Below, piece by piece: positions 14,722 to 26,525 of a stretch of DNA of 64,000 nucleotides. The notes under the pieces are model-generated. The model worked only from the letters and a program-made list of their open reading frames with translations, was not told the DNA's origin and did not search any database. Source of the DNA: Hydrotalea flava (GTDB lineage: Bacteria; Bacteroidota; Bacteroidia; Chitinophagales; Chitinophagaceae); NCBI RefSeq assembly GCF_001623405.1, contig NZ_LUHG01000039.1, positions 62,001 to 126,000 of the forward strand, given 5' to 3'. The number at the start of each line of letters is the position of its first letter. Positions within the stretch are counted from its first letter, which is position 1. The translations under genes were made by a program, and so were the position numbers.

Positions 14722-15492
14722 CTATTTGATGATGTTTTGTAAAAAGTTTTCTGTGCCGGTTTCAATATCAACTGAACCCGACAAAGCCTTAATATAAGCA
14801 CTACCTATAATGGCACCATTGCAGTACTTACAAGCAGCAATAAATGTTGCATGGTCTTTTATGCCAAATCCAACCATAATTGGATTTTTTAAATGCATTT
14901 GCTGTAAGTTTTGCAAATATTTTTCTACTTCTGCAAAATTTTTATCATTTCCTGTGGTTGCAGATGAACTAACTGCATATAAAAATCCTGAACTTAATGC
15001 ATCTAATTTTTTGATTCTCGTTTCAGAGGTTTCAGGGGTTATTAAAAAAATAAAATCTAAACCATATTTTTTTATCATGGCTCCGTACATGGTTTCAAAT
15101 TCGTATTCCGGTAAATCGGGGAGAATTAATCCATCTACACCCACTTCCACAGCTTTTTGGCAAAAAGCTTCAAAGCCATATTGTAAAATTGGATTCATAT
15201 AACCCATTAAAATAATGGGCACATGAATGGTGTTTCGGCAATCCTTCAATTGTTCAAATAATACCTGAATGGTCATGCCATTTTGAAGTGCAATACTGCT
15301 GCTTTCCTGAATAATGGGGCCATCAGCTAATGGATCACTGTAAGGCATACCCAACTCAATTAAATCTGCACCGTGGTTTTGTAAAGCCTGCATTACTGTT
15401 AAAGTACTATTTAATTCAGGATAGCCGGCCGTACAATACACATTGAGTACATTGTTTGATTTTTTTAAGAATACCTCTGTTATTCTACTCAT
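14722..15492 (-). CDS. trpA: Tryptophan synthase, alpha subunit
   Basis: TrpA cleaves indole-3-glycerol phosphate to indole, which tunnels to TrpB. The catalytic Glu and Asp lie in LIELGMPYSDPLADGPIIQESS. The phosphate site includes VGFGIKD and NGAIIGSAYIKAL. Its 256 residues are normal. Its ATG overlaps the TGA of the acetyltransferase gene by four bases (ATGA), so the acetyltransferase between trpB and trpA is translationally coupled to it. Confidence 0.96.
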   Translation of the reverse strand: MSRITEVFLKKSNNVLNVYCTAGYPELNSTLTVMQALQNHGADLIELGMPYSDPLADGPIIQESSSIALQNGMTIQVLFEQLKDCRNTIHVPIILMGYMNPILQYGFEAFCQKAVEVGVDGLILPDLPEYEFETMYGAMIKKYGLDFIFLITPETSETRIKKLDALSSGFLYAVSSSATTGNDKNFAEVEKYLQNLQQMHLKNPIMVGFGIKDHATFIAACKYCNGAIIGSAYIKALSGSVDIETGTENFLQNIIK

Positions 15493-15944
15493 ATAGAAAA
15501 ATCTTTTTGCATGTATAATTTTATTGGATCGTTTGTGGAAAAAATCATAAAACCTAATTGCTGATACAATTTTTGTGCTCCGGTATTTAAATACAATACT
15601 TCTAATGCTACTTTCTTTTTAAGCGCTGTTGCTTTAATACACTGTTGATTAATTAAGGTTGTACCAATTTTTTTATTCTGAAATAAGGGATGAATGTATA
15701 AACTACTGATGAAAATTTTTTCTGTATCTTCTGCAATTTCTATGGTACCAATGGATTGATTTTGCCATTCAATGATCTGTGTTTGTTCGGGAAGAAAATT
15801 ATCCCGATGAAACTGCTGTTGAATGACTTCATCCCATCCCCATATTGCATGTACATAATCATACAGCACTGTTTTTTTTAATTCATAAAAGAAAGCACTG
15901 TCGTTGATTGTTGCCTGCCTCAGATTCAATTGATGAACATCCAT
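15489..15944 (-). CDS. GNAT-family N-acetyltransferase inside the trp operon
   Basis: This 151-residue GNAT protein has a middle part IFISSLYIHPLFQNKKIGTTLIN that gives the acetyl-CoA-binding motif A (here Q-N-K-K-I-G). The C-terminal motif B is LEVLYLNTGAQKLYQQLGF. The acceptor substrate is unknown. It sits 20 bases after trpB and overlaps trpA by four bases, so it is expressed with the tryptophan genes. That suggests a role near tryptophan or an intermediate, but this is only context. A passenger gene captured between trpB and trpA is the alternative. Confidence 0.88.
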   Translation of the reverse strand: MDVHQLNLRQATINDSAFFYELKKTVLYDYVHAIWGWDEVIQQQFHRDNFLPEQTQIIEWQNQSIGTIEIAEDTEKIFISSLYIHPLFQNKKIGTTLINQQCIKATALKKKVALEVLYLNTGAQKLYQQLGFMIFSTNDPIKLYMQKDFSI

Positions 15945-19716: not shown

Positions 19717-20406
19717 TCATGAATGGATTAACCAATTACGAAGCATTTCCTCACCTAAAGGCGTTAGAATACTTTCCGGATGAAACTGAACACCTTGTAC
19801 ATCATATATTTTATGTTGCATAGCCATAATATTTCCTGCATCATCGGTTGCAGTTATCTCCAGCTCTTCCGGTAAGGTTGCCTTATTAATAATCCAACTA
19901 TGATACCTGCCTGCTTCAACGGTGCGTGGCAAATTTTTAAACCAGCTATTCGGCTTTTGCGTAGCCTGATTGGCAATATGAACCTGTGTAGCTACACCAT
20001 GAAAAACTTTGGTTAAATTGGTAAGTTTTGCGCCAAATGCTTCACCAATAGCCTGATGGCCTAAACATACTCCTAAAATTGATTTTGTTGCAGCATACTT
20101 TTGAATTAAGGGCAATAATAAACCTGCCTCTTCCGGTATGCCGGGACCCGGCGATAAAATAATTTTATCAAATTGTGCTATGGCATCCAATTCAATTTCA
20201 TCGTTTCTACATACCGTTACTTCCTGTTGCAAGATGTACGTTACCATATGCACTAAATTATAAGTGAATGAATCATAATTATCAAACACCAATAATTGAA
20301 TGGGTTTGGCTGACCCCCTATTGAATGTAGTTACGCTGTGTAATGGTTGTACAATTTCTGTATTCATCAATTCAAAATAATTTTGGTTAAAGGATGGTAA
20401 TGGCAT
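19717..20406 (-). CDS. trpG: Anthranilate synthase, glutamine amidotransferase component
   Basis: TrpG supplies ammonia from glutamine to TrpE. It opens with LLVFDNYDSFTYNLVHMV, then has the oxyanion SPGPGIPEEAG, the nucleophile Cys in LGVCLGHQAIGEAFGA, and the His-Glu pair in VQFHPESILTPLG. The longest start (20406) overlaps the end of trpE by 20 bases. An in-frame ATG at 20367 (MNTEIVQPLH) is the other candidate. Both leave a rather long extension before the domain. Confidence 0.94.
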   Translation of the reverse strand: MPLPSFNQNYFELMNTEIVQPLHSVTTFNRGSAKPIQLLVFDNYDSFTYNLVHMVTYILQQEVTVCRNDEIELDAIAQFDKIILSPGPGIPEEAGLLLPLIQKYAATKSILGVCLGHQAIGEAFGAKLTNLTKVFHGVATQVHIANQATQKPNSWFKNLPRTVEAGRYHSWIINKATLPEELEITATDDAGNIMAMQHKIYDVQGVQFHPESILTPLGEEMLRNWLIHS

Positions 20407-21805
20407 ATTCTACGGCTTTTTTCAATGCGCCAAGTTTGTTGTTTACTTCTTGTAATTCGCTTTCCGGATTGCTTGCTGCCACAACGCCAGCACCTGCCTG
20501 ATAAAACAGTGTATTGTTTTTGCTTAAAAAAGTTCTAATCATAATGGCATGATTGCAACTGCCATCAAACCCAATAAAACCAAGTGCACCACCGTAGTAG
20601 CTACGAGATGTTGTTTCCAAATCATCAATTAACCCCATTGCTTTAAATTTTGGTGCACCGCTGAGGGTTCCTGCTGGAAAGGTTTTGGCCAGTAATATAA
20701 ATGGATTTGCACCTTCGGCAATTTTTCCGGTTACTTCACTCACCAAATGAATAACATGACTGTAATAATGTATTTGACGAAAATGGCTTACCGTTACATC
20801 GGTACACAATCTGCTTAAATCATTCCGAGCCAAATCAACCAGCATTACATGTTCTGCATTTTCCTTGGCATCGAGTAATAATTTTTCGGCAGCAATGGCA
20901 TCTACTGCATCATTCCCTGTTCGCTTAAAAGTTCCTGCAATGGGATGTACAACTGCTTTCCCATTTTTAATAATCAATTGTGCCTCGGGTGATGAACCCA
21001 TTAATTTATAATCACCATAATCAAAGAAAAATAAATAGGGAGAAGGATTAATGCTGCGTAATGCCCGATATACATTAAACTCATCGCCAATAAAAGTTTG
21101 CTGAAACCTTCTGCTCAAAACAATTTGAAATACATCGCCTCTTAAACAATGCTGAATGCCGGATTTTACCATAGCAATATATGCTTCATCTGAAATGTTG
21201 GATGTTTCATTGCCTTTAACAGCAAATGGGAAAACCGGGATGTCTTTACTTTTTAGCAAACTTTCTACCCACTCTACTTCCGATTCAATACCTTGTATTT
21301 TATTTTCACACAAAAACAATTCATCATTAAAATGATTGATGATGATGATATATTGATAAAATCGGTAGCGCATTAAAGGTATAACCGGTGCTGTGATAGC
21401 TTCATTTTTAAATGTGATGGTATCAAAAAAAGGTATGGCATCATAGGCTGTGTACCCGAAAAATCCCTGTGCACTTTTTACAGTTTTATTGTTAACCGGC
21501 GCCACTTCAAATCTTTGCATAAAATTCCAAACCACTTCCTGAACCGGTGTTTGGCCGGACAATGGAATTTTTTCAGGCTTTTCACCCGGCAGTTTACATT
21601 CTACCTGCTGATTGGTTGAAATTTCAATACCTGCAATAGCATTGATACAAATAAAACTAAAGCTATTTTCCGCAACATGATGGTCGGTACTTTCCAATAA
21701 AATTGTATCTCTGAATTTATCTCTGAATCTTAAATAAATACCAACCGGTGTGTACACATCGGCCAGTAATTTTTTCACTTCTGTTGTTACCAAAATTTTT
21801 TTCAT
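20387..21805 (-). CDS. trpE: Anthranilate synthase component I
   Basis: TrpE converts chorismate and ammonia to anthranilate, the committed step. The N-terminal LLES motif (DTILLESTDHH, about residues 36-40) forms the tryptophan feedback-inhibition site. The C-terminal chorismate-binding half has GSSPEAQL, PIAGTFKRTG, LLDAKENAEHVMLVDLARND and FPAGTLSGAPK. Its 472 residues are normal. It is the first structural gene of the operon and lies about 70 bases behind an intrinsic terminator and a Trp-rich leader peptide. Enzyme activity and transcription are therefore both likely controlled by tryptophan. Confidence 0.97.
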   Translation of the reverse strand: MKKILVTTEVKKLLADVYTPVGIYLRFRDKFRDTILLESTDHHVAENSFSFICINAIAGIEISTNQQVECKLPGEKPEKIPLSGQTPVQEVVWNFMQRFEVAPVNNKTVKSAQGFFGYTAYDAIPFFDTITFKNEAITAPVIPLMRYRFYQYIIIINHFNDELFLCENKIQGIESEVEWVESLLKSKDIPVFPFAVKGNETSNISDEAYIAMVKSGIQHCLRGDVFQIVLSRRFQQTFIGDEFNVYRALRSINPSPYLFFFDYGDYKLMGSSPEAQLIIKNGKAVVHPIAGTFKRTGNDAVDAIAAEKLLLDAKENAEHVMLVDLARNDLSRLCTDVTVSHFRQIHYYSHVIHLVSEVTGKIAEGANPFILLAKTFPAGTLSGAPKFKAMGLIDDLETTSRSYYGGALGFIGFDGSCNHAIMIRTFLSKNNTLFYQAGAGVVAASNPESELQEVNNKLGALKKAVEYAITIL

Positions 21806-21875: not shown

Positions 21876-21904
21876 AAAAAAAAACCCCAACACAATTGTC
21901 GGGG
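21876..21904 (-). terminator. trp operon attenuator (intrinsic terminator)
   Basis: Read on the minus strand, CCCCGACA (21904-21897), the loop ATTG and TGTTGGGG (21892-21885) form an 8-bp stem with one G-U pair. Nine T (21884-21876) follow directly. It lies between the leader peptide and trpE, where an ordinary terminator would silence the operon. UUGGGG at 21951-21946, inside the leader peptide, can pair with CCCCGA (21904-21899) and would break this hairpin. Confidence 0.9.
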
Positions 21905-21938
21905 CTTGTATAAATGTACATATGCAATGTGCAAGGCA

Positions 21939-21998
21939 TTATAATCCCCAAAAGAGATTTGAATGCCACCACCACATATTGTTGATTGTATTTTTCAT
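21939..21998 (-). CDS. trpL: trp operon leader peptide
   Basis: This is a 19-codon ORF, ATG to TAA, encoding MKNTINNMWWWHSNLFWGL: three Trp codons in tandem plus a fourth six codons later. It sits about 35 bases before the terminator stem and 130 bases before trpE, the layout of a ribosome-mediated attenuator. GGCATT, which overlaps the third UGG and the His codon, is the exact complement of AATGCC just after the stop codon, giving an alternative early hairpin. The fourth UGG is part of the predicted antiterminator strand. A ribosome reaching the stop codon would cover it and let the terminator form. Confidence 0.9.
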   Translation of the reverse strand: MKNTINNMWWWHSNLFWGL

Positions 21999-22038
21999 TG
22001 CTTTGCGAAGATGATACAGAAATTTGAAATCAACAAAA

Positions 22039-24251
22039 TTATTTTACAGCCATTATTGCAGACGCATATTTTGAATATAACCGTTTGCTTACCTGCATTG
22101 TATTACCAATGGGCTGATCCGGAAAATGGAGTTTATTTTCAACCCAGCCCAATTCAAATGCCATGAGTGCCTGATTGAACTTATCCTGATCAAAATTAGT
22201 ATTATCCTGCATATTTTTTTCAACTGTATCAATAAACATTTTCCATCTTTCACGGTAATAGGTTTGCATTAATCCTGCCCAGGCACGATTGGCATAGTCG
22301 GTTAAATGTTTACCGGGCTCGCCCCAAACCGTTAAAATTCTTTTTGCATCTTGGGCATAATATTGTTTTTTCTGAGGAGTGGCCGCCATTTTTTCTGCAT
22401 CTGCAATCCAGCTACCCAACAAACAATTTTGATTGGTTGCCAGAAGTGTATCCATATCACTCAATAATGCTAGCATTTGCTTGCCATACTGTTGAACGGC
22501 ATCGGTATTGTGTTCGTTATAACTTTTGGTAAAACCATCACGGAGCACGGCAAAATAATTTCCGAGCACCTGCCGGCCGGTATTTACTACATCGTACAAA
22601 TAAACCGGAGGTGTATGGGCATTAACAGGAGCCTGCAATAATAAATGCCAGGCTTCTAATAAGCTTTTATTGTTATAATTAATTTGAGGATCAGTTGTCC
22701 AGGTATTGTGTCCTGTAAAAGCAGGACGGGCATTGGTTAAAGTGGCACGGCCTAAACCGGCTCTTTCAGCGTATGTGGTATGTAATAAAATATTCCAGGC
22801 CTTTTCTACCGATTCATTGTTGGCTCCATACCTGCTTTTGGCCCAGTTATTTACCCAATTGGCAACATTTACAGGGCCTGTGCTCCAGGCTTTGTCGAAT
22901 ACATATTGATACATGATGGGGTTAACACCAAACCCTTCTAAAGTTGAGCCCAAACCTTTCATGTTTGCACCTCCCTTCTGAAAAGTATTCTCCATTCTTT
23001 CCTCTATTTCCGAAAGGTTTCCCGACATCATGGTATTGCCGCCAAAATTTTGCCGAGATAGCACCAAATATAAGGTTGCCCATAAAAAGCATCGGTAAAT
23101 TTCCATATTTCGGTATTATCACAGTAATAATCTAACAATGTCATTTTACCTTGCGGAACAGCAGTTAAAAAGGCTTTAATACGTTCATCTGTCCATTGTT
23201 TACGCTGATAATAAAAAATCCAGCTCATTTGTAACCATTCTGCTTTGGGATCGGTTTGCAGCATAGATTCGTAGATGGTATTGGCTACCGAAGCTAGATA
23301 CTTAGGTTCCCAACTGGGTGGGGTAACTTCATTGAAAGGGTCGGCACCATAAATATGGCTGGTGCCCAATAATTTTGTTTGCTCTTCTAAATAAGCTTTT
23401 TGAATGGGTTTAAATAAGGAATCGAAAGGATCTAAAAAATAGCTTTCATATTGTTTGCTAAAATCGCCCCACTCGCCCAATGAATGAATTTTTGCTTTGG
23501 GATAAATGGTAGTCAATGCCTGCGGAACATGCCCTGCAAATGCAGGTAAAACAGGCTTCATACCTAATTCTTTTTCGCGTTGTACAATTTTTTTCTGTAA
23601 GGCTAACTGACTGTTGATCCAATGCATGGGCAATGGCCCTTCCCATCTGTCAATATTGGCCATTCTATGCCAGGGCAAATAAGCCGGGCCGGTAAAAAAA
23701 CCTCTAATTTGCTCATCAGTTAATCCAAACTTTTTCCATACTTTATACCAAATAGCTTCCTGTCCGGTTATGGCCAAAGGCATATTAATGCCATTTAATG
23801 CCATCCAGTCAATAAACCATTGCCAATCTTGCCAACCCCACCAGGGCATGGTATAACCAAATGTGCAGTAATTTAGAAAAAAACGCTCATTACAACGGGC
23901 TTTTAGCCCAATGGCTTTATCTAAAACAGGCATTTTTTGCGGCACGGTTACCCCTTCATTTCTGTACCACGAAACATTGGCTAAGCAGGTATTTTTCAAG
24001 TAATAGTTTAACCCAGCGGCCATAGCATTGACGTTACTGCCTTTAACAATGAGTTGATTATTTTGCCAATTGATAAAAAAAGAATCAATGGCACAATGTT
24101 CAATTTTTTGAAATTGTATAGCAGCGGCATATTGGGGTACTACTCGTTTAGCCAGTGTCTGTGCAGCAACTATATCAGCCGTGCTTTTGTTTTGCTGTGC
24201 ATGTACCTGTAAAAAACAACAAATCAATAATAATGAGAACAACCGTTTCAT
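22039..24251 (-). pseudogene. Alpha-N-acetylglucosaminidase (GH89), one frameshift
   Basis: Two minus-strand frames make up one secreted GH89 enzyme of about 730 residues. The first (24251 down to about 23050) starts with a signal peptide MKRLFSLLLICCFLQVHAQ. It carries the family blocks TMPWWGWQDWQWFIDWMALNG, PLAITGQEAIWY, PAFAGHVP and GADPFNEVTPP, up to YIWCYLG. The second frame resumes with QNFGGNTMMSGNL and runs to 22039. Intact relatives read CYLGNFGGNT through this point (from memory). The break is at an AAAATTTT run near 23043-23050. Everything else appears whole, so the lesion is recent, or it is a homopolymer sequencing error. The enzyme would release N-acetylglucosamine from glycans in the periplasm. 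Confidence 0.88.
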
Positions 24252-24362: not shown

Positions 24363-25452
<1,090 letters not shown>

Positions 25453-26179: not shown

Positions 26180-26182
26180 AAA

Positions 26183-26525
26183 GCTACAAACCTCATAAGC
26201 CGGATTCTGTTTCTACACTATCATTTATCTGCGATAAACATTACTGTTTACCTGTTGCTGCCTACCCTGAGCCTTGAACGAGCAGCTCTCAAAACGGCTC
26301 TATATGTGGCATTGCAGCACCCAAGGTTTACCCGTTGCTACCGTTACCGATAACAACCGTGAGCTCTTACCTCACATTTTCACCCTCATCTCGCCTTAGG
26401 CAAGACAGTTATTTTCTGTGGCACTTTCTCTCACCAATTGGTGGCCGGCTGTTCACCGGTGGGTTGCTCTGTACTGTCCGGACTTTCCTCCCTGTTAAAA
26501 CAAGGCGATAGCGCGGGTTTGTAGC
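26183..26525 (-). ncRNA. rnpB: RNase P RNA (M1 RNA, class A)
   Basis: This is the catalytic RNA that trims tRNA 5' leaders. On the minus strand the 5' part has GAGGAAAGTCCGGAC and CAGAGCAACCC, the universal P4/J-region signature. The middle has GTGAGGTAAGAGCTCAC, and the 3' part has GGGTAGGCAGC and AATCCGGCTTATG. The ends are set by the P1 helix: GCTACAAACC (26525-26516) pairs exactly with GGTTTGTAGC (26192-26183). The RNA is about 343 nt. A short T-run follows the 3' end. Confidence 0.95.

Follow-up and report, generated by a model that had tools for sequence, protein, structure and literature searches.

A Predicted Ribosome-Mediated Attenuator with Tandem Trp Codons ahead of the trp Operon of Hydrotalea flava

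Results

A Tandem-Trp Leader ORF and a Terminator Precede trpE

The window, by which we mean the whole 64 kb stretch of Hydrotalea flava DNA analyzed here, carries on its minus strand a trp operon in which trpE is followed by trpG, trpD, trpC, trpF, trpB, a GNAT acetyltransferase gene, trpA, hisH, and hisA. TrpG, TrpD, TrpC, TrpB, TrpA, HisH, and HisA each score above an NCBIfam cut-off. TrpE is assigned from its best hit, TIGR00564, at 388.5 bits, which is under that model's cut-off of 517.7, and TrpF is likewise a best hit under the strict cut-off. The acetyltransferase gene lies inside the operon, between trpB and trpA, at 15944..15489.

Upstream of trpE, the 19-codon minus-strand ORF, strong GC stem, and nine T that an earlier note on this DNA had described are all found directly in the sequence (Table 1). 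The window has, upstream of its trp genes, the Trp-codon leader ORF and terminator expected of the Bacteroidota family RF01692 (Bacteroid-trp). The terminator, AAGCCCCGACA-ATTG-TGTTGGGGTTT (21907..21882, minus strand), has 11 pairs and an energy of -15.1 kcal/mol, and 70 nt separate the T-run from trpE. On the same strand, GGCATT (21967..21962) and TTGGGG (21951..21946) lie inside the leader ORF, and AATGCC (21940..21935) begins with the AA of the stop codon.

Table 1. Elements of the trp Leader Region and the Basis on which Each Was Placed

Feature	Position	Strand	Basis
Putative Bacteroidota sigma-A promoter, -33-type TTTTG	22038..22034	minus	sequence; family consensus TTTG at about the matching place
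-7-type box CATCTTCG, 7 nt before the leader AUG	22013..22006	minus	weak match to TAnnTTTG, 4/6
Leader ORF MKNTINNMWWWHSNLFWGL*, 19 codons plus stop	21998..21939	minus	sequence
Three tandem Trp codons	21974..21966	minus	within leader ORF MKNTINNMWWWHSNLFWGL
Strand 1: Trp-Trp-Trp-His codons and flanks; partner, post-stop RNA	21979..21962	minus	fold, consensus fold, alignment
Apex arm AAUCUCU; partner, GGGGAUU of strand 2 (ribosome-free fold)	21959..21953	minus	fold, consensus fold
Strand 2 (antiterminator arm) UUGGGG, within the ORF, with the fourth Trp codon	21951..21946	minus	anchored loci, masked folds
Stem 1 hairpin, 3' side, beginning at the stop codon	21940..21920	minus	fold, consensus fold, alignment
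Strand 3: terminator 5' arm AAGCCCCGACA	21907..21897	minus	hairpin and duplex computation, covariation
Strand 4: terminator 3' arm	21892..21882	minus	hairpin computation, consensus fold
Nine-T run	21884..21876	minus	sequence
trpE, first gene of the regulated operon	21805..20387	minus	TIGR00564 best hit

This arrangement is more than chance, because it is unique in a scan of the window, folds below its shuffles, and is conserved in relatives. When both strands of the 64 kb were scanned for an ORF of 8-40 codons with three identical residues in a row and a hairpin plus T-run no more than 140 nt downstream, the leader was the sole match listed (two start codons of one ORF). The fold energy of the 127-nt leader is 4.1 sd below its own shuffles, 0 of 200 being as low.

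The Leader Is Conserved in Relatives

As the earlier note predicted, and in place of the lack of conservation that it named as grounds against an attenuator, the leader is found in relatives: 146 of 167 genomes have a short ORF with WW or WWW no more than 600 nt before trpE. These are 103 of 106 in the window's family, Chitinophagaceae, and 43 of 61 outside it; the other 18 of the 61 have no WW leader within that distance. The longest Trp run is three in 125 of the 146 leaders, two in 20, and four in 1. An ATG opens 143 of the 146 ORFs under a calling rule that prefers ATG, and a strict terminator rule is satisfied downstream of 129, a looser rule finding a hairpin in the other 17. Left out before these counts were, from the family, G153 and G085 (cut-off genes), G070 (short upstream), and G004; from the class, G205, G353, G210, G312, G336, G309, G278, G217, G175, G333, and the second trpE of G181; and, from the phylum, G413 plus 33 genomes that lie outside the class and whose E was roughly 1e-81 to 1e-87.

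Of the three misses in the family, G164 (L089) and G079 (L095), which belong to one genus, retain the layout of the trp leader but have just one Trp codon in it; in G100, no trp leader was seen upstream of trpE. Outside the family, three of the misses (G275, G242, and G306) have a match to the Rfam family RF01692 at 1.2-1.3 kb upstream of trpE, a gap that leaves room for an intervening gene.

Of 147 family genomes, 75 contain a leader DNA pattern (TGGTGGTGGCAYNC, 4-14 nt, GGGG) and 3 contain the reversed pattern. A narrower pattern, searched in one genome per species, matched at least 120 stretches. Among the matches listed, 76 of 80 have a same-strand TrpE frame no more than 2.2 kb downstream, at a median distance of 127 nt; L209 and L220 resemble chance matches in coding DNA, and L227 and L249 lie at the end of the available stretch. 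By record title, the matches listed come from Hydrotalea, Sediminibacterium, Niastella, Niabella, Terrimonas, Flavihumibacter, Filimonas, Cnuella, and Paracnuella, with a few MAGs bearing other titles (Williamsia, Flavobacterium, Chitinophaga pinensis).

The Leader GGGG Covaries with the Terminator 5' Arm

In the window, strand 2 pairs with the terminator 5' arm at -10.0 kcal/mol, compared with -5.2 for the 3' arm. Across the 146 loci, the leader end forms a duplex of -10.6 kcal/mol with its own 5' arm versus -8.5 with swapped arms, and the duplex is better than shuffles at p 0.05 in 86. We called a locus type I when a G-rich stretch at the ORF end pairs with the terminator 5' arm at -9.5 kcal/mol or better. 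All 83 such loci are in the window's family, and pairing counts on them are favored because duplex strength partly selected the set. In 81 of the 83, the stretch is GGGG or GAGG, opposite CCCC, CCUC, or CUUC; L023 and L097 are without the GGGG core, so the anchored set numbers 81.

With 63 of 146 loci outside this 5'-arm rule, we reject the idea that all Bacteroidota share one architecture. Taken together, these 63 pair more strongly with their own terminator loop plus 3' arm than with swapped ones (-11.7 versus -8.9 kcal/mol); singly, the complementary run beats shuffles (p 0.05 or less) in only 26. In 61 loci without CCYCG, own and swapped 5'-arm pairing are little different (-7.0 versus -6.3).

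Three results speak for selection on the antiterminator pairing. Each of the three codon registers is used to read the GGGG core (55, 17, and 9 of the 81 anchored loci), giving R-G, S-G-V, or P-G peptides, with L017 and L078 anchored ambiguously; this implies that the RNA, not the peptide, is kept. GAGG accompanies CCUC in L051 and L084, and since the other terminator arm of L051 is still GGGG, the CCUC change there matches strand 2 alone. Positions flanking the core pair better with their own terminator than with permuted ones (392 versus 366, sd 7.8, p 0.002). In alignment A1 (75 rows, the type I loci minus duplicates L040, L041, and L068 and minus L023, L097, L059, L093, and L096), the covariation score of the antiterminator was equaled in 1 of 500 shuffles and lies above all six slid controls. 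Double-change cells number 24 versus 15.3 in shuffles (5/500), and 76.3% of cells are paired versus 74.0% (3/500); pairs with double changes (41/500) and pair types (24/500) are weaker statistics, and all of these shuffle tests treat loci without regard to kinship. Breaks are frequent in the outer pairs (26:100 in 44 of 71 rows, 27:99 in 33 of 74, and 28:98 in 25 of 75), and some of them stem from codon-register shifts. The conserved core and the covariation bear out the pairing of UUGGGG with CCCCGA that the earlier note proposed, and the covarying stems that it expected in relatives are found in this 75-row alignment.

Computed Folds Suggest a Kinetic Switch

When no ribosome is present, the leader is predicted to form one long hairpin, with post-stop RNA paired to the Trp-Trp-Trp-His codons and GGGGAUU paired to AAUCUCU; the prediction holds with the terminator left off. 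The consensus fold of the 75 sequences contains the same two helices in part. In stem 1, 88.8% of 667 cells are paired, compared with 20.6-58.0% in slid controls. The letters of its noncoding, post-stop side vary, mostly keeping the pair, and pair 12:47 is broken in 27 of 75 rows. Only one-sided changes are seen, because the Trp codons fix the ORF side, and that invariance makes the shuffle control of stem 1 uninformative. In single-locus shuffle tests, about 40% of 83 loci reach p 0.05. Both the ribosome-free fold and the conservation of stem 1 agree with the earlier pairing of GGCATT with AATGCC. By hiding strand 2, this hairpin would play the part that strands 1:2 have in the classic attenuator.

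Folding with and without the leader masked, as the earlier note suggested, gave the two states that its model calls for: the antiterminator with a stalled ribosome, before the 3' arm is made, and the terminator with a ribosome at the stop codon. With the RNA masked as by a ribosome stalled at the first Trp codon and the 3' arm absent, the MFE fold contains UUGGGG:CCCCGA (-12.3; matched by 25 of 200 shuffles). Under the same mask, adding the 3' arm makes the terminator the winner (-22.7), and with the ribosome at the stop only the terminator remains (-15.7). Since the terminator is favored at equilibrium even when the ribosome is stalled, antitermination has to be kinetic, and we infer that the switch would work by order of synthesis.

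Promoter Spacing Predicts a Nearly Leaderless RNA

The CATCTTCG box is common to the window and three genus mates. The best sigma-A-like box stops 4-11 nt short of the leader AUG in 76 of the 83 type I loci, 46 of which have a gap of exactly 7 nt. Among the 7 loci that depart from this is the window, for which the rule picked a box 35 nt away. A box no more than 10 nt from the AUG is present in 75 of 83 type I loci versus 71 of 1660 shuffles of upstream DNA, and in 31 of the other 63 loci.

In Flavobacterium psychrophilum, a sigma-A-type box lies at -12 to -5 relative to the transcription start (PMC9723704). A 7-nt gap would therefore put the start 3 nt before the AUG, predicted at about 22001 in the window. 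This predicted start is upstream of the leader, not downstream of 21876, where it would have counted against the earlier note's reading. The same spacing predicts a 5' UTR of 0-7 nt in 76 of 83 type I loci. The nearly leaderless RNA is a prediction at the level of the family, because the window's own box at that place is weak and the rule preferred the one 35 nt off. Leaderless mRNAs are uncommon in Bacteroidota as far as mapped: 5.5% of F. psychrophilum mRNAs with a mapped start are leaderless (PMC9723704), and about 3.7% of the 5' UTRs of B. thetaiotaomicron are shorter than 10 nt. Bacteroidota mRNAs are described as having no Shine-Dalgarno sequences (PMC7366714).

The Layout Differs from Known trp Leaders

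The E. coli trp attenuator has two tandem Trp codons and strands 1 to 4, with a choice of 2:3 versus 3:4 pairing. Tandem Trp codons, four strands, and the 2:3 versus 3:4 logic are common to it and the window. The window differs in its three tandem Trp codons, in a strand 2 that lies in the ORF, and in a 5' UTR predicted to be nearly absent. Leaderless trpL RNAs have been described in other phyla with other promoters: trpL1 of Streptomyces lividans, MFAHSTRNWWWTAHPAAH, is transcribed leaderless (PMC8079986), and the trpL RNA of Sinorhizobium meliloti begins at the AUG (PMC7298713), whereas the start in the window is predicted from promoter spacing.

Within Bacteroidota, Rfam family RF01692 (Bacteroid-trp), the Bacteroidete tryptophan peptide leader RNA, was listed by Weinberg et al. 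(2010) (PMC2864571). A Bacteroid-trp element precedes the trp operon of F. psychrophilum, according to the elastase paper on that species (PMC6414381). Leader-peptide attenuation is reported for its amino-acid operons, upstream of which there are "strong clues" for leader peptides; the passages that say so give no layout or family comparison (PMC9723704). The window scores below the cut-offs of both RF01692 (24.6 bits, E 1.1 in 281 nt; cut-off 49) and RF00513, the Trp_leader of Proteobacteria type (20.6 bits; cut-off 41). In genome searches whose strict filters lose some weak matches, RF01692 reached its cut-off in 8 of 198 class genomes and in 0 of 147 family genomes, where the best score was 41.7 in G031. 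Four of the eight (L125, L126, L128, and L147), with a leader no more than 600 nt from trpE, were compared with the window. They are Bacteroidota too and, as in the window, have a WWW leader and a terminator. In these four, it is the terminator loop and 3' arm that pair with the ORF end, which reads UCGUGA with the stop counted in (GUCGUGA in three). In the window, the pairing segment is the GGGG that precedes the stop, and it pairs more strongly with the 5' arm than with the 3' arm. The probable attenuator of the earlier note is one of a known kind; what that note missed was RF01692 itself, the distinct layout, and the promoter that in the family adjoins the AUG.

A covariance model built from the family alignment, R1, reached at least 60 bits in 82 of the 147 family genomes but nowhere outside the family in the class sample (best 42.8); it was trained on most of those family sequences, so only the absence elsewhere is informative. 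Tallies of R1 at E 0.01 (150/198 and 139/147) are not meaningful, consisting in large part of weak hits to ordinary terminators. On a TrpE tree built quickly from 92 rows, 4 changes suffice to explain the type I label (30.7 with shuffled labels), all 42 type I rows fall in one group of 47 (support 100), and well-supported branches force at least 2 type I changes; these numbers are approximate, five rows being mislabeled "none" (duplicates of genomes under another locus). The type I layout likely had one origin with some losses.

His and Ile/Val Leaders

A poly-His short ORF precedes hisG at 18 of 21 loci (L320-L340), including that of the window's own genome, where the leader (L333, G000:C50) reads MNLNNVYMHHHTLPTL. 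At 12 of 17 loci, the stop codon falls within the longest match of the his ORF end to the terminator 5' arm (all or part of GGUAAGC); this match beats shuffles (p 0.05 or less) at 10 of 17, both holding at 8. Searched against Rfam at gathering score, 16 hisG leaders gave no leader family. An Ile/Val-rich short ORF and terminator precede ilvD at 8 of 18 loci (L359, L361, L364, L367, L370, L371, L373, and L374), six of the eight having Gly-Gly near the end and a CCGCCTC-type terminator. No leader was found upstream of ilvB at 18 loci; ilvB follows ilvD. In the window's own genome, an ilv leader was not located, and the DNA before ilvD resembles the end of another gene.

Discussion

These results make it highly likely that the leader is a ribosome-mediated transcription attenuator of the trp operon. 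As the earlier note held, attenuation ahead of trpE is supported by the sequence elements, conservation, covariation, and computed folds, the mutually exclusive antiterminator and the pairing model being products of computation. Translation, stalling, the start site, and the tryptophan response we infer from sequence. In the proposed mechanism, polymerase would start about 3 nt before the leader AUG, and translation of the leader would follow immediately. Under a shortage of charged tRNA-Trp, the ribosome would stall on the three tandem Trp codons and cover strand 1. GGGG, left free, would pair with the 5'-arm CCCC while the 3' arm was still unmade, and polymerase would read into trpE. When Trp is plentiful, the ribosome would reach the stop codon and cover GGGG, the terminator would form, and transcription would end near 21876. 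If no ribosome came, the Trp-His codons would be paired with the RNA beyond the stop, strand 2 would be hidden with its GGGG bound to UCUC, and termination would again follow.

The terminated leader RNA or its peptide might also act in trans, like rnTrpL and peTrpL of S. meliloti, a precedent that is itself leaderless (PMC7298713). Trp excess would indeed yield a short terminated RNA, some 125 nt long and carrying a conserved WWWH core, but the conserved WWWH and N-S/L residues are also explained by the RNA pairings, and the C terminus of the leader peptide shifts register (RGL, SGV, PGL); we consider a role in trans improbable.

It is very unlikely that the leader simply encodes a small protein, ending at a terminator of its own, with trpE driven by a separate downstream promoter. 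A short ORF and terminator could stand alone, and the T-run is 70 nt away from trpE. However, a promoter-like score of 8 or more occurs before the trpE start at 9 of 83 type I loci and before the leader at 82 of 83 (408 of 1660 in shuffled DNA). A protein, moreover, would not need a GGGG core kept in all three codon registers, or a terminator 5' arm that covaries with the leader ORF.

The fourth Trp codon falls exactly in strand 2 in the window and in G132, and the earlier note saw its place in the window as a neat twist on the classic scheme. We very much doubt that it is a functional refinement by which stalling within strand 2 tunes the switch. TGG lies inside strand 2 at these 2 of the 81 anchored loci only; three genus mates (L002, L003, and L004) have CGG in its place, and the U of TGG, standing for C, retains pairing with G. 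A ribosome stalled there would also act in the wrong direction, covering the antiterminator strand and favoring termination. We read the fourth Trp codon as drift and reject it as a design feature.

Direct sensing of tryptophan or tRNA by the leader RNA, with the ORF incidental, is scarcely credible: T-box, riboswitch, or TRAP-like systems control trp genes in Firmicutes, but no T-box or riboswitch family was found in the window at gathering score or in the leader at E up to 10, and the tandem Trp codons are kept across the 146 leaders.

The ribosome-mediated attenuator favored here is known in kind, and its layout is new for Chitinophagaceae as far as the searched literature goes: that literature, supplements and subscription journals aside, contained no description of it. 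Whether the family has an attenuator class of its own, with a near-zero 5' UTR and an antiterminator arm in or across the ORF end, serving trp and his and perhaps ilv, we regard as evenly balanced. If it does, a Bacteroidota ribosome on nearly leaderless RNA would pace polymerase enough to decide termination within about 125 nt, and the near-leaderless start together with the His and Ile/Val leaders would offer a direct test of transcription-translation coupling in this phylum. The analysis extends an RNA family found computationally in 2010 to a large bacterial family that the Rfam model misses, with covariation sufficient to support the mechanism ahead of experiment. It also shows that the antiterminator partner differs by lineage, being the loop plus 3' arm or the 5' arm, around the same Trp codons.

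Finally, three neighbors upstream on the minus strand deserve mention. The nearest, at 24251..22039, is an alpha-N-acetylglucosaminidase (NAGLU) in two overlapping frames (24251..23028 and 23106..22039), which cover profile positions 1-277 and 278-335 of a single domain; the split appears to be a frameshift or sequencing error. Beyond it lies a peptide chain release factor with PCRF and RF-1 domains (25388..24363), whose listed frame opens with GTG and which is likely prfB with its usual programmed frameshift. The bacterial class A RNase P RNA is at 26524..26180.
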